Below are positions 23,104 to 33,018 of a stretch of 64,000 nucleotides of DNA, piece by piece. The translations under genes were made by a program, and so were the position numbers. The stretch lies in contig JAFUKD010000007.1 in the NCBI GenBank assembly GCA_017467905.1, forward strand, positions 1-64,000, written 5' to 3'. Each line of letters begins with the position of its first letter. Positions within the stretch are counted from its first letter, which is position 1. This DNA is from Phascolarctobacterium sp. (lineage in GTDB: Bacteria > Bacillota > Negativicutes > Acidaminococcales > Acidaminococcaceae). Under the pieces are notes generated by a model. That model did not search any database, was not told the DNA's origin, and worked only from the letters and a program-made list of their open reading frames with translations.

Positions 23104-23214
23104 ATGGACATTGTTTTAAGAAACACTGCAGTTGAATACGGCTACTTTGCACCGGACTTTAGCTTTTACTTTAGCACCGGCTTTTTTGCTTGCCAAAATT
23201 CATACGCAGATTAA
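23104..23214 (+). CDS. Phe/Tyr leader peptide of the aromatic operon attenuator
   Basis: A 36-codon frame starting ATG with AGGTGA six bases upstream. The peptide has six Phe and four Tyr, clustered as YGYFAPDFSFYFSTGFF. It is followed by a small hairpin (GTGATG-GAA-CATCAC, 23234-23248) and an intrinsic terminator at 23271. This matches the known plan of translational attenuation leaders such as pheL: shortage of charged tRNA-Phe or tRNA-Tyr stalls the ribosome and favours read-through. GCCTTT at 23226-23231 can pair with AAGGGC at 23269-23274 as an antiterminator; a ribosome at the stop codon would cover it. The pairing is my inference. Confidence 0.75.
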   Translation: MDIVLRNTAVEYGYFAPDFSFYFSTGFFACQNSYAD

Positions 23215-23270
23215 TCGTAAACAGTGCCTTTTGGTGATGGAACATCACAGTGAAGAATATGTTTTTGCAA

Positions 23271-23300
23271 GGGCTCTCTTACGAGAGCCCTTTTTATTTT
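23271..23300 (+). terminator. Attenuator terminator of the aromatic operon
   Basis: Perfect eight-base stem GGGCTCTC / GAGAGCCC, loop TTAC, tail TTTTTATTTT. It lies between the leader peptide and the first DAHP synthase gene, so it acts inside the operon leader. Confidence 0.85.
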
Positions 23301-23429: not shown

Positions 23430-24443
23430 ATGGTAATCGTATTCAAACCTAATGCACCCCAAGAAACTAAAGTTAATATTAAACAAAACCTTGAAAGCCA
23501 AGGCTATATGATTAATGAAATCAATGGTATCAATACCACTATTTACGGCATCATCGGTGATACCAGCGCATTAGATATTAATATGCTGCGTATTCATGAC
23601 TGCGTAGAAAAGGTTTTGCGCGTATCCGAACCTTTCAAACGTGCTAACCGTGCTTTCCATCCGGATGACAGCGTTGTTAATGTTTCCGGTGTACCTGTTG
23701 GCGGCCGCAAAATTCAAGTTATCGCAGGTCCCTGCTCTGTTGAAAGCCAAGATCAAGTTGTAACCGTCGCTAAATCTGTAAAGCTTGGCGGTGCAACCTT
23801 GATGCGCGGTGGCGCTTTCAAACCCAGAACTTCCCCGTATTCCTTCCAAGGCTTGAAGGAATTGGGTCTTGATTACTTGAAGGCAGCAAGAGAAGAAACC
23901 GGCTTGCCCATCGTAACTGAAATTATGAGCGCTGATAAAATTGAACGCTTCGTAGAAGACGTTGACCTGATTCAAGTTGGCGCACGCAATATGCAAAACT
24001 TTGAACTGCTTAAAGAGCTGGGCAAAACCCGTACTCCGATTTTGTTGAAACGTGGTCTTTCTGCAACCATCGAAGAATGGATTATGTCCGCAGAATACAT
24101 AATGGCTGGCGGTAACGAGAACGTTATCCTGTGTGAACGCGGTATCCGTACCTTTGAACATTATACCCGCAACACTTTAGACCTGAGTGCGATTCCGGCA
24201 GTTAAAAAATTGAGCCACTTACCGGTAATCGTAGACCCGTCCCATGCAGCTGGCATGTGGTGGATGGTAGAGCCTTTGGCAAAGGCAGCAGTTGCTGTTG
24301 GCGCTGACGGCTTGTTGATTGAAGTACATAATGATCCTGAACATGCTTTGTGTGACGGTGCGCAATCCTTAAAACCGGAACGCTTCGCACGCTTGATGGG
24401 CGAACTGAAAGGTATTGCTCAAATCGTAGGTCGCGACCTCTAA
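23430..24443 (+). CDS. aroF: DAHP synthase, type I-beta, copy 1
   Basis: First enzyme of the shikimate pathway, joining phosphoenolpyruvate and erythrose-4-phosphate; 337 residues. Residues 1-75 form the ferredoxin-like N-terminal domain (MVIVFKPNAPQETK), which in type I-beta enzymes such as that of Thermotoga binds Tyr/Phe. The TIM-barrel follows: AGPCSVES, RGGAFKPRTSPYSFQG, KIERFVEDVD, VGARNMQNFELL, LLKRGLSATIEEW, DPSHAAG. GGAGAG precedes the ATG. It is the first structural gene after the attenuator. A second copy with a nearly identical barrel but more divergent N-domain follows. Confidence 0.94.
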   Translation: MVIVFKPNAPQETKVNIKQNLESQGYMINEINGINTTIYGIIGDTSALDINMLRIHDCVEKVLRVSEPFKRANRAFHPDDSVVNVSGVPVGGRKIQVIAGPCSVESQDQVVTVAKSVKLGGATLMRGGAFKPRTSPYSFQGLKELGLDYLKAAREETGLPIVTEIMSADKIERFVEDVDLIQVGARNMQNFELLKELGKTRTPILLKRGLSATIEEWIMSAEYIMAGGNENVILCERGIRTFEHYTRNTLDLSAIPAVKKLSHLPVIVDPSHAAGMWWMVEPLAKAAVAVGADGLLIEVHNDPEHALCDGAQSLKPERFARLMGELKGIAQIVGRDL

Positions 24444-24454
24444 TTAAAAAACAT

Positions 24455-24495
24455 GCTTCCCTAATAGGAGAGCTGTCACGAAAGTGACTGAGGAG
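24455..24495 (+). repeat. Double-hairpin interspersed repeat, copy 2
   Basis: GCTTCCC-TAAT-AGGAGAGC, then GTCAC-GAAA-GTGAC and TGAGGAG, related to the copies at 6971 and 60165. The rest of the 143-base gap between the two DAHP synthase genes holds another hairpin (CTATATTAAGC / GCTTAAGCTATAG, near 24513-24541) flanked by direct repeats TAGAATTGTAG. Confidence 0.65.
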
Positions 24496-24586
24496 TTCGT
24501 AGAATTGTAGTTGTCTATATTAAGCTTTCGCTTAAGCTATAGAGTAGTATTGTAGAATTGTAGGATAGTAAAGGAGCGAACTGATT

Positions 24587-25600
24587 ATGATTATTGTATT
24601 TAAACCCAATGTACCCGAAGAAGCAAAATTAAAGGTAAGAGCAAAATTGGAAGGTAATGGCTTCCAAATTCATGAAAGTAATGGCTTGAACGTTACTTTA
24701 TACGGCATTGTAGGTGATACCAGTGCTTTTGATATGCGTACCTTGATTTCTGATGAATGTATTGAAAAGATTATGCGCGTGCAAGAACCCTTTAAACGTG
24801 CTAATCGCATGTTCCATCCAGAAGATAGCATTGTGGATGTTGCAGGCGTACCCATTGGCGGACGTAAGATTCAGGTTATTGCAGGTCCTTGTTCTGTTGA
24901 AAGTGTTGAGCAGGTAACTTCTGTGGCACAATCCGTTAAGGAAGCAGGCGCAACCCTGATGCGTGGCGGTGCTTTCAAACCGCGTACTTCCCCGTACTCT
25001 TTCCAGGGCTTGAAGGAATTGGGTTTAGATTACTTGAAAGAGGCAAGAGCTAAAACCGGCTTGCCTATTGTAACTGAAATTATGAGTGCCGATAAAATTG
25101 AACGCTTTGTAGAAGACGTGGATTTAATTCAGGTTGGTGCTCGCAATATGCAAAACTTTGAGCTGCTTAAAGAGCTGGGCAAGACCCGCACACCTATTTT
25201 GCTGAAACGTGGTCTTTCTGCAACTATCGAAGAATGGATTATGTCTGCCGAATACATTATGGCGGGCGGTAATGAAAACGTTATTCTGTGTGAACGTGGT
25301 GTGCGTACCTTTGAAACCTACACCCGCAACACGCTGGATTTAAGTGCGATTCCGGCGGCGAAAAAGCTAAGCCATTTACCTGTAATCGTAGACCCGTCCC
25401 ATGCTGCAGGCTTGTGGTGGATGGTAGACCCCTTGGCTAAAGCAGCAGTTGCTGTTGGCGCCGATGGTTTGTTGATTGAAGTACACAACGATCCGGAGCA
25501 TGCCCTGTGTGATGGCGCACAATCCTTGAAGCCTTCCCGCTTTGCTAACTTGATGACAGAGCTGAAGGGGATTGCGCAAATTGTTGGCAGAGAACTGTAA
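24587..25600 (+). CDS. aroF: DAHP synthase, type I-beta, copy 2
   Basis: Tandem paralogue of the preceding gene with the same length, 337 residues, and the same reaction. From about residue 85 on the two proteins differ at few positions, while the N-terminal domains (residues 1-80) differ much more (MIIVFKPNVPEEAKLKVRAK against MVIVFKPNAPQETKVNIKQN). Unequal constraint or gene conversion on the barrel would explain this. The natural inference is two isozymes with different feedback specificity (for example Tyr and Phe), since the N-domain is the allosteric site. AAAGGAG precedes the ATG. Confidence 0.93.
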   Translation: MIIVFKPNVPEEAKLKVRAKLEGNGFQIHESNGLNVTLYGIVGDTSAFDMRTLISDECIEKIMRVQEPFKRANRMFHPEDSIVDVAGVPIGGRKIQVIAGPCSVESVEQVTSVAQSVKEAGATLMRGGAFKPRTSPYSFQGLKELGLDYLKEARAKTGLPIVTEIMSADKIERFVEDVDLIQVGARNMQNFELLKELGKTRTPILLKRGLSATIEEWIMSAEYIMAGGNENVILCERGVRTFETYTRNTLDLSAIPAAKKLSHLPVIVDPSHAAGLWWMVDPLAKAAVAVGADGLLIEVHNDPEHALCDGAQSLKPSRFANLMTELKGIAQIVGREL

Positions 25601-25618: not shown

Positions 25619-26683
25619 GTGATAATTGTATTTAAACCCAATACTCCTGATGAAGATAAGCTAAGGGTAAAGGGAAAGTTAGAGGAACGTGGATTTTTAG
25701 TTCACGAAAGTAACGGTGTCAATATTACTCTCTTTGGTGTTGTTGGCGATACCAGCAATTTTGATGAACATACTTTAAATGAAGATGATGTCATTGAAAA
25801 GGTTGTGCATATTCAAAAGCGTTCCCGCAGTACTAATTGGCAGCAGTTGAAATTTGCCATTATCGGTATGGGGCTTATTGGCGGTTCTTACGCCAAAGCC
25901 CTACGCCGTTTGGGTGTCAAGAACATTGTGGCAGTGGAAATCAACGAAGCAGTAGCATTGCAGGCGCAAAGATTGGAACTTGCCAATCCGGTGCTGACTG
26001 CTCCCAATGAAAAGCTAAAGGATGCTGATGTCATTATCTGTGCTATTTATCCGGAAGGTGTTGTACCCTTTTTGCGTGACAACGTACAGTTTTTCAAGGA
26101 TGATGTGCTGATTACAGATGTTTCCGGAATCAAGAGGAACTTAGCGAAGGAAGCGCAAGCAGAGCTGAAGGCAGGAATGGAGTTTATCTCCGGTCATCCT
26201 ATGGCGGGGCGTCAAAGCAGTGGCTTAGAAATGTCCGAAGCAGAAATTTTCCAGGGTGCCAACTATATTATTGTGCCTGAAAAGCATAACCGCGAGGAAT
26301 CTATTGAGTGGCTGGAAAAATTTGCTTTAGCTTTGGGGTGCAGGCATACGGTGCGCGTAACCCCGGAAGAGCATGACCGGACTATTGCCTTTACCAGCAA
26401 CCTGACTCACATTACAGCTGTGGCGTTGATGAACAGTGCTTCCTATAATGAAAAGACCAAGTACTTTGTTGCCGGAAGCTTCCGTGATGGAACCCGTGTA
26501 GCAGATATCAACCCGGAATTGTGGTGCAGCTTGTTCATGGCGAACAAGGAAAAGGTTGCCGACGAAATAGATAAGTATATTGAACAGCTTGACCTGTGGA
26601 GCAAGGCTTTGCGCGCAGGTGATGGCGAGCAGATGAAGGACATGATGCGTGTTGCTGCCGCCAGAAGAAAGGAACTCTACTAA
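25619..26683 (+). CDS. tyrA: Prephenate dehydrogenase with N-terminal DAHP-synthase regulatory domain
   Basis: 354-residue fusion. Residues 1-75 (MIIVFKPNTPDEDKLRVKGK, VHESNGVNITLFGVVGDTS) are homologous to the N-domain of the two DAHP synthases just upstream. From residue 79 the protein is a TyrA enzyme that oxidatively decarboxylates prephenate with NAD(P)+: Rossmann motif IIGMGLIGGSYAKAL, ISGHPMAGRQSSGLE, and HDRTIAFTSNLTHITA with the catalytic His. The usual C-terminal ACT domain of Firmicute TyrA is absent. GTG start with CGAGGGA upstream. The fused domain probably lets Tyr or Phe control the enzyme; this is an inference. Confidence 0.9.
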   Translation: MIIVFKPNTPDEDKLRVKGKLEERGFLVHESNGVNITLFGVVGDTSNFDEHTLNEDDVIEKVVHIQKRSRSTNWQQLKFAIIGMGLIGGSYAKALRRLGVKNIVAVEINEAVALQAQRLELANPVLTAPNEKLKDADVIICAIYPEGVVPFLRDNVQFFKDDVLITDVSGIKRNLAKEAQAELKAGMEFISGHPMAGRQSSGLEMSEAEIFQGANYIIVPEKHNREESIEWLEKFALALGCRHTVRVTPEEHDRTIAFTSNLTHITAVALMNSASYNEKTKYFVAGSFRDGTRVADINPELWCSLFMANKEKVADEIDKYIEQLDLWSKALRAGDGEQMKDMMRVAAARRKELY

Positions 26684-27747
26684 TGGAGAAGATACATGTT
26701 GATTTAGGAAAACATGCATATGATATAGAGATTGATGCAGGGCTTTTGCCGCAAGTTGGACCGAAGGTAGCTGCTTTGGTACCTAAGGCAAGTAGGGCTG
26801 TCATTGTTAGCGATAGCAATGTTGCACCTCTTTATGGCGCAGTTTTGCAGCAGTCTTTGACGGAAGCAGGGCTTCCTGCAACTATTGTTACTATAGAAGC
26901 GGGAGAACAGAGCAAGAATATGCAGGTGCTCAGCAATGTGTTGGAGCAGATTGCAGAAAGTGGTTTAACCCGTAGTGATGTGCTGGTAACTTTAGGTGGC
27001 GGCGTTGTAGGAGATTTGGGTGGCTTTGCTGCGGCAAGCTTTATGCGCGGCATTGCTTTTGTACAAGTACCCACATCCTTGCTGGCACAAATAGATAGCA
27101 GTGTTGGCGGCAAAGTGGCCGTAGATTTGAAGGCTGGCAAAAATTTGGCAGGTGCCTTCTACCAGCCGAAAGCAGTGTTCATTGATACAGATTTGTTGGC
27201 TACCTTGCCAGTACGCTTCCTGCATGATGGCTTGGCAGAAGCAATTAAGTATGGCTGCATTCAAGACGCTGCTCTATTTGACAAGATTGCTGCGTACAAA
27301 AATGATGCTGAGCTTTTGGCAGATATTGGCAGTGTAGTTGCAAACTGCTGCGCAATTAAGGCGCGAATTGTAGAAGAGGACGAGTTTGACACAGGCTTGC
27401 GTGGTATTTTGAATTTTGGTCATACCTTAGGTCACGCGGTAGAACAGCACTACAGCTATGGGGAATACACTCATGGCGAAGGCGTTGCCATTGGTATGTA
27501 TCAAATTACCAAACGCACGGAAGAACTTGGAATGACTCCCGTAGGTACTGCGGAAAAAATTGCTGTAGTACTGAAAAAATATAACCTTCCCATCGAAGCA
27601 GGGGTGGAAAAGGCTGCCCTCTTAGGTACGATGGCAAAGGATAAAAAGAAATCCGGTAATAGTATTACGTTGATTGTTTTAGATGAGATTGGCAATGGTA
27701 GATTGCATAAAATAAATTGGCAGGAAGTGCCAAACTATTTGGGGTAA
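26683..27747 (+). CDS. aroB: 3-dehydroquinate synthase
   Basis: Second step of the shikimate pathway, DAHP to 3-dehydroquinate, NAD+- and metal-dependent; 354 residues. Motifs: GGGVVGDLGGFAA, FVQVPTSLLAQIDSSVGGK, KNLAGAFYQP, DGLAEAIKYG, LNFGHTLGHAVE with metal-binding His, and HGEGVAIGM. Its ATG shares one base with the tyrA stop (TAATG), so translation is coupled. Confidence 0.96.
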   Translation: MEKIHVDLGKHAYDIEIDAGLLPQVGPKVAALVPKASRAVIVSDSNVAPLYGAVLQQSLTEAGLPATIVTIEAGEQSKNMQVLSNVLEQIAESGLTRSDVLVTLGGGVVGDLGGFAAASFMRGIAFVQVPTSLLAQIDSSVGGKVAVDLKAGKNLAGAFYQPKAVFIDTDLLATLPVRFLHDGLAEAIKYGCIQDAALFDKIAAYKNDAELLADIGSVVANCCAIKARIVEEDEFDTGLRGILNFGHTLGHAVEQHYSYGEYTHGEGVAIGMYQITKRTEELGMTPVGTAEKIAVVLKKYNLPIEAGVEKAALLGTMAKDKKKSGNSITLIVLDEIGNGRLHKINWQEVPNYLG

Positions 27748-27750
27748 ATT

Positions 27751-29055
27751 ATGGAAAAAATCCGTATCATTCCGACGAAGTTAAAAGGAACGGTGCTTGC
27801 ACCCTCGTCTAAGAGTATGGGGCACAGGGAAATTATCTGTGCAGGTTTGGCAGCGGGCACCAGTATTGTAGATAATATCAGTATGTCCAAGGATATTGAA
27901 GCAACCTGTCGTTGCTTACGTGCTTTGGGCGTAGTCATCGAGGAAGTGCCAAGTAAATTTGCAGGGCGTAGTGCGCTGAAGGTAATTGGTACAGGAAACT
28001 TAAAAGCAGCAGAAGCAGGCGCGGATTGTGGTGAATCCGGGTCTACTTTGCGTTTCTTTATTCCTTTGGGTGCGCTCCTGGACGCGCCCTTTACTTTTAC
28101 CGGACATGGTAAATTAGTAAGTCGTCCTTTGAATGCTTATTACGATATTTTTGCCAAGCAAGGCTTAAAATACGAAACTGCGGAAGCAGGGAATTTGCCT
28201 TTAACGGTTAATGGTCGTTTGCAGGCAGGATTGTATCAGCTTCCCGGTAATGTAAGCAGCCAATATGTAAGTGGTTTGCTTTTCGCTTTACCCTTGTTGG
28301 ACGGCGACTCTGTTATTGAAATTACTTCGGAGCTGGAATCTGCAGCTTACGTTGATATGACTTTAAGCTGTTTGGCAAAATACGGTATTGAAATTATGAA
28401 TGAGAATGATGCACACCGCCGTTATCTGGTGAAGGGTGGGCAAAAATATCAGGCTATGGATAGCAATGTTGAAGGTGACTGGTCCCAAGCTGCCTTCTGG
28501 ACTGTGGGTGGAAGCTTGGGCGAGGCAGTAACCTGTAGTGGCGTTGACTTCACTTCCCTGCAAGGTGATAAGGCAGTAGTTCCTATTATGGAAGGAATGG
28601 CTGCGGATATCTCCGTTCAAGGTACTGATGTAGTAACCATTAGCAAAACTACTAAGGCAACCGTTATTGACGGAGCTAATTGTCCGGACATTATCCCTGT
28701 GCTGACAGTGCTGGCTGCGGTAAGCGAAGGCACAACAGAAATTATCAACGCCGGTCGCCTGCGCATTAAAGAATGTGATAGGCTGGCGGCTATTACTCAA
28801 GAGTTAAACAAATTGGGAGCAGATATTACCGAGCTTCCGGAAGGTTTAATTGTAAAGGGCAAGCCCGAAGGCCTACGCGGCGGCGCAGAAGTTGATGCGT
28901 GGAATGACCATCGCATTGCCATGAGCCTGGCGATTGCAGCACAAAAATGTGCTGAGCCCTTTGTCTTGACAGGGGCAAACAGTGTGCAAAAGTCCTATCC
29001 TGAATTCTGGCAGGACTACAAACTGGTTGGCGGTAAGATTGAGGTGCTGGCATGA
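27751..29055 (+). CDS. aroA: 3-phosphoshikimate 1-carboxyvinyltransferase (EPSP synthase)
   Basis: Sixth step of the shikimate pathway, 434 residues. The N-terminal segment has SSKSMGHREIICAGLAAG, then DCGESGSTLRFFIPLGAL (the family signature LxxGxSGTxxRF region), SSQYVSGLLFALP, VEGDWSQAAFW, and later RIKECDRLAA and DAWNDHRIAMSLAIAA. The phosphoenolpyruvate-site pattern reads GESGSTLR rather than GNAGTAMR, closer to class II-like enzymes. It is three bases after aroB and overlaps aroC by four. Confidence 0.94.
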   Translation: MEKIRIIPTKLKGTVLAPSSKSMGHREIICAGLAAGTSIVDNISMSKDIEATCRCLRALGVVIEEVPSKFAGRSALKVIGTGNLKAAEAGADCGESGSTLRFFIPLGALLDAPFTFTGHGKLVSRPLNAYYDIFAKQGLKYETAEAGNLPLTVNGRLQAGLYQLPGNVSSQYVSGLLFALPLLDGDSVIEITSELESAAYVDMTLSCLAKYGIEIMNENDAHRRYLVKGGQKYQAMDSNVEGDWSQAAFWTVGGSLGEAVTCSGVDFTSLQGDKAVVPIMEGMAADISVQGTDVVTISKTTKATVIDGANCPDIIPVLTVLAAVSEGTTEIINAGRLRIKECDRLAAITQELNKLGADITELPEGLIVKGKPEGLRGGAEVDAWNDHRIAMSLAIAAQKCAEPFVLTGANSVQKSYPEFWQDYKLVGGKIEVLA

Positions 29056-30143
29056 GTGGAATTTACGGAATGAATATTAAAATGGCAATCTATGGCGAAT
29101 CCCACGGCGCTTCCATCGGTCTTGTTATTGACGGCGTGCCGCCTGGATTGCAATTAGATTTAGAAGCAATCGAAAAAGAAATGGCACGTCGCGCTCCGGG
29201 TAAGAACCAGCTTTCTACTCAACGCAAGGAGAGTGACAGCTTCGCTATTCAAAGCGGCTTCTTTGAAGGCTATACCACAGGTACCCCCCTGTGCGTGGTA
29301 ATTAAAAACAGCGACCAACATTCTAAGGACTACAGCATCTTGAAAGATAAGATGCGTCCCGGTCATGCGGATTATGCTGGCTTCGTCCGTTATCAGGGGT
29401 TTAATGATTATCGTGGCGGCGGACATTTTAGCGGTCGTCTGACTGCGCCTTTAGTTTTTATTGGTGCGGTGGCGAAGCAAGCCTTAGCGCAGCATGGCAT
29501 TTTAGTTGGTGCGCATATTCTGCAGATAGCAGATATAAAGGAAGAAAACTTTAATCCCATGGGGATTGACGATACAAAAATCGCAGAGCTGAATGCAAAA
29601 AGCTTCTGTGTAATGGATGATGCCATTGGTGAAAAAATGCAAGCTAAGATTTTAGAAGCCAAGGCAAATTTGAATAGTGTGGGCGGTATTATCGAAACAA
29701 TGGTTACTCACCTGCCTGCTGGTTTAGGTGCTCCCTATTTCGATTCTGTAGAGAGTCGTTTAAGCCACGCCCTCTTTAGTGTGCCCGCAGTAAAGGGTGT
29801 GGAATTTGGTGATGGCTTTGGCATTAGCGCACTGACCGGCGCAGAAGCCAATGACCAGCTTCATTACGAAGACGGTAAGGTTGTGGCAGAAACTAATCAC
29901 AATGGCGGCATTACTGGTGGCATTACTAATGGTATGCCTGTAATCTTCCGAGTGGCGATTAAACCCACGCCTTCCATCTCCCGCGAGCAAAGAACTATCA
30001 GCCTGCAGGAGCAGAAGGATACAACTTTAACCATCGTTGGCAGGCATGACCCCTGCATTGTGCAAAGGGCAGTACCTGTTATTGAGGCAGTAACTGCTTG
30101 GACTATATGGGATTTACTTTTAGAAGCTAAGAAATGGAATTGA
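29052..30143 (+). CDS. aroC: Chorismate synthase
   Basis: Last common step to chorismate, FMNH2-dependent anti-elimination of phosphate from EPSP; 363 residues. Motifs: YGESHGASIGLVIDGVPPG, ARRAPGKNQLSTQRKESD, RPGHADYAG, YRGGGHFSGRLTAP, GVEFGDGF and TNHNGGITGGITNGMP, RHDPCIVQRAVPV. The ATGA overlap with aroA couples translation. Confidence 0.96.
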   Translation: MSGIYGMNIKMAIYGESHGASIGLVIDGVPPGLQLDLEAIEKEMARRAPGKNQLSTQRKESDSFAIQSGFFEGYTTGTPLCVVIKNSDQHSKDYSILKDKMRPGHADYAGFVRYQGFNDYRGGGHFSGRLTAPLVFIGAVAKQALAQHGILVGAHILQIADIKEENFNPMGIDDTKIAELNAKSFCVMDDAIGEKMQAKILEAKANLNSVGGIIETMVTHLPAGLGAPYFDSVESRLSHALFSVPAVKGVEFGDGFGISALTGAEANDQLHYEDGKVVAETNHNGGITGGITNGMPVIFRVAIKPTPSISREQRTISLQEQKDTTLTIVGRHDPCIVQRAVPVIEAVTAWTIWDLLLEAKKWN

Positions 30144-30147
30144 TAGT

Positions 30148-31266
30148 ATGGCAGAATTGGATTTGAATGTTATCCGCGAAGAAATAGACAAGGTTGACAG
30201 ACAGCTTGCTGCAATTTTAGAAGCGCGTTTAGGTTTGGTAATGCAGGTTGCCGAATACAAAAAAGCAAAGGGCATGCCAGTAAAAGATAAGGCGCGAGAG
30301 GCAAAGGTTGTAGAAAAAGTAACAGGCTTCTTGGAAAATAAGGATTATGTGCCTGCTGTTGAAAGCATTATGCATAGCATTATGGACGCTGCTTGCGTAC
30401 TGGAGGAAGCAGAGCTGGCGAAAGCAAACGATAGAACCTTACAAATTGCTTGCTTTGGCGTGCCGGGGTCCTTCACCCATCAAGCTTTGGAGGATTATTT
30501 CACTGGCAAGGATTATGAGCGTCAGCACTTTAATTTGTTTGAAGAGGTTATTACTGCTGTAAGTAATGGCGCTGTGGATTACGGCGTTATTCCTATCGAG
30601 AATTCTTCCACTGGCGGCATTACCGAAGTTTACGACTTGCTGCGTAAATATGATTGCAGTATTGTTGGAGAGCGTTGCATCAAGATTGAACAGAACCTTT
30701 TGGGTTATGGCGAGGCAACCTTGAGCACTATTACTAAGGTGTACAGCCACCCCCAAGGCTTGGCGCAAAGCAAGGAGTTTTTTAGAGACCATCCCCAGAT
30801 GGAGCAAATTCCTTATTTTAGCACTTCCAAGAGTGCGGAAACTGTTGCAGAACAAAAAGATATTACTCTTGCCGCAGTTGCCGGCAAGAAGGCAGCAGAG
30901 CTGTACGGCTTGAAGATTTTGGCAGAAAACATTAACTACAATTCTAATAACTCTACCCGTTTTGCTATTATTGCTAAAAATCCGGAGAAGGTTCCCGGAG
31001 CAAATAAGATTACCATTGTGTTGGCAGTAAAGCACGAATCGGGTTCTTTGTACAAAATGTTAGGCCACCTGTATCATCGTGGCTTGAATATGGTAAATAT
31101 TGAATCTCGTCCTATGGAGGGGAAATCTTGGGAATATTTCTTCCACGTTGATTTGACAGGTAACCTTGATGACCCGGAAGTTAAGGACGGTATTGAAGAA
31201 GTAGATAAGAATTGTACCTACTTCAAGGTTTTAGGTAACTACAGGGCAGATACCCGAAAGGAATGA
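30148..31266 (+). CDS. pheA: Bifunctional chorismate mutase / prephenate dehydratase
   Basis: P-protein of 372 residues that converts chorismate to prephenate and then to phenylpyruvate. Residues 1-88 are an AroQ-type chorismate mutase (REEIDKVDRQLAAILEARLGL); 98-280 are prephenate dehydratase (PGSFTHQALEDYF, VIPIENSSTGGITEVYDLL, NNSTRFAII with the catalytic Thr); about 290-372 is an ACT domain (SGSLYKMLGHLYHRGLNMVN and ESRP) that binds Phe. Feedback by Phe is expected at the protein level in addition to the attenuator. It provides the mutase activity needed by TyrA as well. Confidence 0.95.
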   Translation: MAELDLNVIREEIDKVDRQLAAILEARLGLVMQVAEYKKAKGMPVKDKAREAKVVEKVTGFLENKDYVPAVESIMHSIMDAACVLEEAELAKANDRTLQIACFGVPGSFTHQALEDYFTGKDYERQHFNLFEEVITAVSNGAVDYGVIPIENSSTGGITEVYDLLRKYDCSIVGERCIKIEQNLLGYGEATLSTITKVYSHPQGLAQSKEFFRDHPQMEQIPYFSTSKSAETVAEQKDITLAAVAGKKAAELYGLKILAENINYNSNNSTRFAIIAKNPEKVPGANKITIVLAVKHESGSLYKMLGHLYHRGLNMVNIESRPMEGKSWEYFFHVDLTGNLDDPEVKDGIEEVDKNCTYFKVLGNYRADTRKE

Positions 31267-32084
31267 GGCTTATGCAGTATGGTTTGTTAGGCGGCAAGCT
31301 TGGTCACAGCTTGTCTCCCAAAATTCATGAACTGTTTTTTAAGTACACTGGTGTTAGCGGCACTTATAGCCTGCTGGAAACAGAACTGGAAGCTTTGCCT
31401 GAACGTGTGCAAGGAATGCGTACTACTTACGCAGGCAGTAACGTAACCATTCCACATAAAATTGACGTAATGCCTTTGTTAGATAGTATTGCTCCAGAAG
31501 CACAAGCCATTGGCGCAGTGAATACCATTAAGTTTACTCCGGAGGGTGCCTTTGGTTTTAACACTGACTACTTCGGTTTTGGTAGAATGTTGGAATACAA
31601 TGACATTGCCATCACCGGTAAAGCTGCTGTGGTTTTAGGTAGCGGCGGTGCGGCACGCGCAGTAATGAAGTATTTGGCAGATAAGGAAGCTGCGGAGATT
31701 TACCTTGTAACCCGCGAGCCTCAAAGCGTTGATAAACACTTTTTGGAAATCGCACCTAACTGTAAAGTAATTGACTACGCTACTTTGGAAGATTTGCAGG
31801 GGGATGTAATCATTAACTGCACTCCCGTAGGAATGTACCCTAAAGTAGAAGCTGCTCCCGTAAGCGCGAAGGTGTGTGCAAACTTCGAGGCAGCAGTAGA
31901 TTTGATCTATAATCCTGCAGAAACCTTGTTCTTGAAACAGGCGAAGAACGCAGGCAAGAAATACGTGAATGGTTTGTTTATGCTTGTGGCGCAGGCAGTG
32001 GCGGCGCAGGAAATTTGGCAGGGAAAAACTTACGATAGCCAGCTAATAGTAAGGATTATGACTGAATTGGAGCGTAGCATATGA
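31263..32084 (+). CDS. aroE: Shikimate dehydrogenase
   Basis: NADPH-dependent reduction of 3-dehydroshikimate, fourth step of the pathway; about 270 residues. Visible: GLLGGKLGHSLSPKIHE (shikimate-binding Ser pair), NVTIPHKIDVM with catalytic Lys, GAVNTI, NTDYFGF, VLGSGGAARAVMKYL for the cofactor, NCTPVGMYP, and GLFMLVAQAVAAQEIW. The ATG at 31263 overlaps the pheA stop; an ATG at 31272 is equally possible. It overlaps aroK by four bases. Confidence 0.93.
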   Translation: MRLMQYGLLGGKLGHSLSPKIHELFFKYTGVSGTYSLLETELEALPERVQGMRTTYAGSNVTIPHKIDVMPLLDSIAPEAQAIGAVNTIKFTPEGAFGFNTDYFGFGRMLEYNDIAITGKAAVVLGSGGAARAVMKYLADKEAAEIYLVTREPQSVDKHFLEIAPNCKVIDYATLEDLQGDVIINCTPVGMYPKVEAAPVSAKVCANFEAAVDLIYNPAETLFLKQAKNAGKKYVNGLFMLVAQAVAAQEIWQGKTYDSQLIVRIMTELERSI

Positions 32085-32581
32085 AAAATATAATTTTGAT
32101 TGGTATGCCTGGCTGTGGTAAATCAACCTTCGGTAGAAAACTGGCAGAAGAAATGCAGCGAGACTTCTTTGATGCAGATGAAGTGCTGGTAATGCGGGAG
32201 CACCGTACCATTGAAGACTTCTTTGCGGAAAGTGAAGCTGCCTTTCGGACAGCAGAGACCCGTACCCTAAAGTACCTTGCGGAGAAGGATGGCGTAATCA
32301 TTGCAACTGGCGGCGGGGCGGTGACCCGTCCTGAAAATATGGAACTGCTTTCCGAAAATGGCGTTATCGTTTTCATAGACCGCAAGCCTGAAAAAATTTA
32401 CGAAAGCATCAATGATATTGTGCGTCCGCTATTAACAGAGGATAAGCTGCGTTTGTTCAAGCTATACGAAGAACGCATTGCTCTTTATCAAAAATATGCA
32501 ACCTACATCATTGGCAACAATGGTTCTTCCGAAGAAACTGTTGAAAAATTAGTCAATTACGTTAGGGGGATAAAAGAATGA
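32081..32581 (+). CDS. aroK: Shikimate kinase
   Basis: Phosphorylates shikimate with ATP; 166 residues. P-loop GMPGCGKSTFGRKLA near the start, DADEVL with the shikimate-binding Asp, FFAESEAAFRTAETRTLKYL, ATGGGAVT (GGG motif) and VFIDRKPE. The lid arginine lies in the IVRPLL segment. ATGA overlap with aroE and with aroQ. Confidence 0.93.
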   Translation: MKNIILIGMPGCGKSTFGRKLAEEMQRDFFDADEVLVMREHRTIEDFFAESEAAFRTAETRTLKYLAEKDGVIIATGGGAVTRPENMELLSENGVIVFIDRKPEKIYESINDIVRPLLTEDKLRLFKLYEERIALYQKYATYIIGNNGSSEETVEKLVNYVRGIKE

Positions 32582-33018
32582 AAAAAATTTTAGTACTGAA
32601 TGGCCCTAACATCAATATGTTGGGCGTGCGTGAAAAGGCAATTTATGGTCGCCAAGATTTTAAAAGCCTTTGTGCTTATATCGAATCTGCTGCCGACAAG
32701 TTAGGCGTGCATGTGGATTTGGTACAGAGTAATTATGAAGGCGATATTGTTACTGCTATCCAAAATGCTTACGGCGTTTACGATGGAATCGTTATCAATC
32801 CGGCGGCGCTTACCCATTACAGTGTGGCAGTGCTTGATGCCTTGAAGGCAGTGAACATCCCTGCTATTGAAGTACACATCAGCAATATTCACGCTCGTGA
32901 GGAATTCCGCCATAAATCCGTAACTGCGGCAGGATGTATCGGACAAATCTGTGGCCTGGGCTTTGCAGGTTACGCACTGGCACTTGAAGCGTTGGCAGTT
33001 TATCAACCTGAAATTTAA
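32578..33018 (+). CDS. aroQ: Type II 3-dehydroquinate dehydratase
   Basis: Third step of the pathway (dehydroquinate to dehydroshikimate), small type II enzyme of 146 residues that forms dodecamers. Signature: LNGPNINMLGVREKAIYG, QSNYEGDIVTAI, INPAALTHYSVAVLDAL, EVHISNIHAREEFRHKS and GLGFAGYALAL. The catalytic Tyr in the lid loop (IYG) and His in EVHISN are present. It is the last gene of the operon, followed by a strong terminator, and completes a full set of seven shikimate steps. Confidence 0.95.
   Translation: MKKILVLNGPNINMLGVREKAIYGRQDFKSLCAYIESAADKLGVHVDLVQSNYEGDIVTAIQNAYGVYDGIVINPAALTHYSVAVLDALKAVNIPAIEVHISNIHAREEFRHKSVTAAGCIGQICGLGFAGYALALEALAVYQPEI

Follow-up and report, generated by a model that had tools for sequence, protein, structure and literature searches.

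A DAHP-synthase regulatory domain fused to the sole prephenate dehydrogenase of a Phascolarctobacterium genome, a candidate tyrosine sensor

Introduction

In the chimeric DAH7PS design 4grs, a regulatory domain was reportedly engineered onto an unregulated DAHP-synthase barrel. In the type I-beta DAHP synthase of T. maritima, the tyrosine sites are made by two N-terminal domains together (PMC5493349), and the binding of phenylalanine or tyrosine limits substrate access to the active site (PMC5526877). DAHP synthases of Bacillus and Listeria carry a chorismate-mutase regulatory domain (PMC5526877). The prephenate dehydrogenase TyrA, for which the roles of the conserved catalytic histidines and substrate-binding arginine have been described, is itself susceptible to inhibition by tyrosine at the catalytic site (PMC2954222). 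TyrA has been found fused N- or C-terminally to AroQ, HisHb, AroF, ACT and REG (Song et al. 2005; PMC1173090), and a DAHP-synthase regulatory domain is not named among the fusions in the accessible part of that survey.

Here, we describe a tyrA gene that begins with the ferredoxin-like regulatory domain (FXD) of DAHP synthases, in a 64,000-nucleotide stretch of a Phascolarctobacterium sp. contig (JAFUKD010000007.1, positions 1 to 64,000; hereafter the window). No earlier description of the FXD-TyrA architecture was found in the open-licence papers searched. The features of the locus are collected in Table 1.

Table 1. Features of the aro operon and its leader region in the window
Feature	Position	Strand	Basis
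Phe/Tyr-rich leader peptide (MDIVLRNTAVEYGYFAPDFSFYFSTGFFACQNSYAD) upstream of aroF1	23104..23214	+	conserved in 4/4 species of the genus, recognisable in L059 and L060 (close relatives with an unfused TyrA)
Intrinsic-terminator-like hairpin and T-run between leader peptide and aroF1	23269..23300	+	sequence
aroF1, FXD-bearing type I-beta DAHP synthase (Asn29/Ile31)	23430..24443	+	Pfam, trees, alignment
aroF2, type I-beta DAHP synthase whose FXD (His29/Ser31) is closest to the fused one	24587..25600	+	Pfam, blast, trees, alignment
Fused tyrA, FXD regulatory domain and prephenate dehydrogenase, 354 aa, GTG start	25619..26683	+	open frame, Pfam, start-site comparison
FXD (DAHP-synthase ferredoxin-like domain, PF18152), residues 1-67	25619..25819	+	Pfam, AF2, Foldseek to 4grs/1rzm/1vr6
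His29-Glu30-Ser31, matching the T. maritima tyrosine-selectivity positions	25703..25711	+	alignment; role reported for T. maritima mutants
Linker and junction, residues 64-77	25808..25849	+	comparison with unfused relatives; linker pLDDT about 78
TyrA core, residues 78-354: NAD(P)-binding and helical dimerisation domains, no ACT	25850..26680	+	Pfam, alignment, AF2, structure matches
Remaining aro operon: aroB, aroA, aroC, pheA (chorismate mutase-prephenate dehydratase-ACT), aroE, aroK, aroQ	26683..33018	+	Pfam

Results

Domain composition of the fused protein

The gene is a genuine, translated fusion in which an FXD of the aroF2 lineage precedes a prephenate dehydrogenase that is ordinary in other respects and has no ACT domain. 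As the first-pass annotation of this DNA had anticipated, Pfam searches matched a DAHP-synthase N-domain and prephenate dehydrogenase domains in one protein. The DAHP_snth_FXD profile (PF18152) was covered from end to end (1-67 of 67; E = 1.5e-17, 63.6 bits with a curated cut-off of 27 bits), followed by PDH_N at residues 92-242 (3.5e-27) and PDH_C at 248-344 (1.3e-21). The FXD score is on par with those of both DAHP synthases encoded upstream (1.6e-17 and 1.2e-16). The annotation had described residues 1-75 as a third copy of the N-domain of these neighbours; the homology stands, and the domain itself is shorter, extending over residues 1-67. By blast, the fused FXD shares 56-60% identity with its aroF2 counterpart and 41-43% with the one in aroF1. 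The DAHP synthase barrel (PF00793), present in aroF1 and aroF2, is absent from the fusion.

The operon reads aroF1-aroF2-tyrA-aroB-aroA-aroC-pheA-aroE-aroK-aroQ, placing the fused tyrA between aroF2 and aroB. Exactly three FXDs were found in the whole genome, every one of them in this operon, and the genome contains a single PDH_C, making the fused protein its sole TyrA or PDH-family dehydrogenase. Residues H193 (in HPMAG), H252, H264 and R293 of the TyrA part occupy invariant columns in 38 aligned sequences. No ACT domain was matched by Pfam in the fused TyrA, and the AF2 model ends after the PDH_C helices. The common C-terminal ACT domain had been listed as missing, which is correct as far as its absence goes, but nothing was lost or swapped: as the unfused relatives (about 290-310 aa) also end without ACT, its absence is ancestral in this TyrA family, and a replacement of ACT by the FXD was rejected on the same grounds.

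An AF2 model of the fused protein built on the 38 sequences had a mean pLDDT of 93.2 and a pTM of 0.79, with the lowest block, residues 61-70, at 78 in the linker. The FXD is predicted to form strands at 2-5, 27-32, 37-42 and 59-63 and helices at 11-23 and 51-54, and residues 73-354 align with solved structures of TyrA (4wji, Z 32.8; 2g5c, Z 32.4). Because matches to the TyrA part took up the results when the complete model was searched, the FXD was modelled (pLDDT 80.9) and searched separately. Foldseek returned eight strong PDB matches for it, with rmsd of 1.1-2.1 A and E values between 6e-6 and 5e-4 (0.06 for the rows that followed). All of them are chains either of T. maritima DAHP synthase (1rzm, 1vr6) or of the DAH7PS chimera 4grs, which was the best.

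Junction and translation start

Compared with unfused relatives, the FXD sequence stops at about residues 66-68, at the point directly ahead of the DAHP-synthase linker PFKRANR. As unfused relatives start ...FRSTNWQELSFAIVG, residues ~69-82 of the fused protein (RSTNWQQLKFAIIG) are the native TyrA N-terminus rather than FXD. The unfused TyrAs of close relatives have M/L-(E)-(S/A)-GFRSTNWQELSFAIVG or similar at their start, and the sequence across the junction of the fused protein reads ...EKVVHIQKRSRSTNWQQLKFAIIG. On this comparison TyrA is present almost in full from residue ~69 on.

Each of the six fused genes identified (see below) has a Shine-Dalgarno-like sequence ahead of its FXD, and the FXD start has the only well-placed ribosome-binding site in the fused tyrA. 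No conserved usable internal start was found across the six genes; the sole conserved in-frame start codon within the Phascolarctobacterium-like genus is Met84, which falls inside the GxGxxG motif. On these observations, translation from inside the TyrA part was rejected, and the internal start near residue 79 that the first-pass annotation had named as one possible refutation of the fusion finds no support.

Distribution and origin of the fusion

Among the matches listed from 380 Negativicutes genomes, the full-length fusion was found in four genomes of the Phascolarctobacterium-like genus and in two species (genomes G053 and G055) of another genus in the family; the remaining members of this second genus have an unfused TyrA. 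Relatives sharing the fusion include Phascolarctobacterium MAGs from deer gut. None was seen among the matches listed from about 385 other Bacillota genomes (a phylum-wide sample) and 83 genomes of one further class, two partly overlapping sets in which a very diverged fusion could escape the search; nor did the ten matches listed from plasmid records include a full-length fusion. The junction is identical in 4/4 species of the first genus. G053 has about 13 extra residues of aroF-like linker (VTESFRGGFRPEKG) at its junction, and G055 has a third linker type, VTPVSKAGNK.

In the FXD tree, the fused FXDs of the Phascolarctobacterium-like genus join their aroF2 counterparts from that genus (95/97), the fused domain deriving from an aroF2-type copy and not from aroF1, and a single clade of all fused FXDs was rejected (p-AU 0.018). 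An operon tree built on aroB, aroA, aroC, pheA and aroE placed G053 and G055 as sisters (99/99) and contained two further clades, one of the Phascolarctobacterium-like genus (95/99) and one of those members of the second genus whose TyrA is unfused (99/100); one clade of all fused genomes was disfavoured (p-AU 0.041). The TyrA-core tree alone did not reject a single clade of fused proteins (p-AU 0.073). Taken together, these trees do not favour a single origin, and at least two independent fusions, each from an aroF2-type FXD, are the most likely history on tree evidence; one fusion followed by loss and by gene conversion from aroF2 could mimic independent origins.

A deletion inside a third tandem aroF copy, as initially proposed, is a possible route, and partial duplication of the 5' end of aroF2 fits the Phascolarctobacterium-like genus equally well. 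No barrel sequence remains at the junction to favour one route over the other. The operon of G055 contains a single intact aroF and its genome two FXDs in all, the same number as in its unfused relatives, counts that fit a second aroF copy having been consumed by the fusion.

The TyrA cores of G053 and G055 (L057, L058) lie on branches (0.47 and 0.43) that are long next to those of unfused species in their genus, which would be consistent with faster evolution once fused.

Conservation and selection

The four species of the Phascolarctobacterium-like genus differ in the fused protein, at 79-81% identity. Ratios of dN/dS, which are rough as synonymous sites are partly saturated, were 0.09-0.22 for the fused FXD, compared with 0.04-0.09 for that of aroF2 and 0.02-0.06 for the TyrA core. 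The fused FXD is therefore under purifying selection, and it evolves faster than the aroF2 FXD, with residues 47-67 drifting most, from which its old function may be partly relaxed. Within this genus, the His29-Glu-Ser31 segment and most of region 25-46 are invariant between fused and aroF2 FXDs.

Residues of the putative tyrosine sensor

Positions 29 and 31 of the FXD align with T. maritima without gaps. The fused FXD and aroF2 carry His29 and Ser31, which we take to be the tyrosine-selectivity pair of the T. maritima DAHP synthase, versus Asn29 and Ile31 in the aroF1 of the same operon and genus. Mutants in Cross & Parker (2013, FEBS Lett; cited in PMC5526877) are reported to show that His29 and Ser31 set the potency of tyrosine and the selectivity between tyrosine and phenylalanine. 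Among the six fused FXDs, Ser31 is present in all and His29 in five, the exception being Asp29 in G055. The His/Ser pair is also seen in aroF FXDs of distant Bacillota and is therefore probably ancestral, with the aroF1 state derived. The Asn29/Ile31 residues of the aroF1 FXD (window 23430-24443) are common to many aroF copies in the family and suggest a changed or lost sensing of tyrosine.

Leader region and neighbouring aroF genes

Ahead of aroF1, the leader peptide and hairpin (window 23104-23300) look like a Phe/Tyr attenuator of the operon. An Rfam match to STnc100 over this region was only sub-threshold and was taken as chance. The gap between aroF1 and aroF2 (24450-24586) is repeat-rich, with an inverted repeat (ttaagctttcgcttaa) near 24521-24540. 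In another genus of the family (G015; L026:906-1560, approximately), the aroF just upstream of tyrA keeps its FXD and has lost much of the barrel (218 aa frame); it is possibly an FXD-bearing remnant or a dimer partner. In G024 (L062:1380-2246), a second aroF of 289 aa, about 50% identical to aroF1 and aroF2, has no FXD, and loss of the sensor therefore also happens in tandem aroF arrays.

Discussion

We favour, with a probability of roughly 0.65, the reading that a transplanted tyrosine sensor gives TyrA a feedback control parallel to that of AroF2. The initial proposal that the branch enzyme shares the allosteric sensor of the entry enzyme is the most likely one because the N-domain is homologous, complete, predicted to fold, and keeps His29 and Ser31; binding, pairing and inhibition are what these features would imply. 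Two FXDs, from two TyrA subunits or from two dimers, would pair around L-tyrosine as in T. maritima, and this pairing would restrain the NAD-binding domain or cap the active-site cleft, so that tyrosine would inhibit TyrA allosterically while inhibiting AroF2. AroF2 and TyrA would then be predicted to respond to tyrosine, and AroF1 to something else or to nothing. As TyrA is inhibitable by tyrosine at its catalytic site, an added sensor is not strictly needed, and its added value might be cooperativity or sensitivity.

The same domain could act in trans, by pairing with the FXD of AroF2 (or AroF1) and docking TyrA on the DAHP synthase, so that tyrosine or phenylalanine would govern the assembly of a complex of the entry and branch enzymes. 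In type I-beta DAHP synthases, ligand sites arise where the FXDs of different subunits pair (PMC5493349), the M. tuberculosis chorismate mutase forms a regulatory complex with DAHP synthase (PMC5526877), and the fused FXD is still close in sequence (56-60%) to its partner encoded immediately upstream; the tetramer of AroF2 would, however, already satisfy the AroF2 FXDs, and we consider docking unlikely. Its extension, in which the FXD would be both a sensor and an assembly tag that can be transferred, and a tyrosine-gated complex of the first enzyme with the tyrosine-branch enzyme was selected independently in two lineages, is equally speculative. We are similarly doubtful of a reading in which the FXD acts as a tag, either structural or for expression, that serves folding, oligomer state or translation coupling, with ligand binding lost or irrelevant. 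Its relaxed constraint relative to aroF2, the divergence of residues 47-67 and the Asp29 of G055 would suit such a role, but the invariance of His29-Glu-Ser31 and most of 25-46 between fused and aroF2 FXDs in the Phascolarctobacterium-like genus, and a second lineage with the same domain order and other junctions, argue against it.

The genomes that carry the six fused genes are all drafts, mostly evident MAGs, in which an aroF 5' end could have been misjoined, and translation starting inside at the TyrA part would likewise make the fusion an artefact. A junction shared unchanged by four species that are 79-81% identical in protein, an open frame under purifying selection, and the Shine-Dalgarno-like sequences before the FXD start in 6/6 genes, with no conserved usable start inside, make an artefact very improbable.

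Returning to the tyrosine-sensor reading, the fused protein is best placed beside the systems it resembles. It shares with the T. maritima DAHP synthase (1rzm, 1vr6, 3pg9) an N-terminal FXD of 67-68 residues with His29 and Ser31; there the domain regulates a DAHP-synthase barrel, whereas here it precedes prephenate dehydrogenase and the barrel linker is gone. The TyrA-ACT protein of Bacillus anthracis (5uyy) likewise joins the same catalytic core to a small added amino-acid-binding domain, although its ACT is C-terminal and of another family, while the fused TyrA has its FXD at the N-terminus and lacks ACT; if the sensor reading is true, the FXD is an alternative to ACT for making TyrA tyrosine-sensitive. 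As in the fusions included in the available part of Song et al. 2005 (PMC1173090), a TyrA core is joined to a pathway or regulatory domain, and FXD-TyrA appears, within the open-licence literature, to add a regulatory domain of a family otherwise met only on DAHP synthases. In chorismate-mutase-DAHP synthases, too, a domain of one aromatic-pathway enzyme serves as the sensor of another (PMC5526877), with a downstream fold regulating the entry enzyme; here the direction is reversed, and the sensor of the entry enzyme sits on a downstream enzyme. The locus offers a test case for a regulatory domain gaining control of a new enzyme, with the unfused sister enzymes as controls. The 4grs chimera moved the same FXD onto another catalytic domain by engineering, onto another DAHP synthase, whereas here the move is natural and onto a different enzyme. 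FXD-TyrA thus appears to be a natural counterpart of that engineered transfer, one that probably took place in two lineages and reached an enzyme of another fold at a later step of the pathway.
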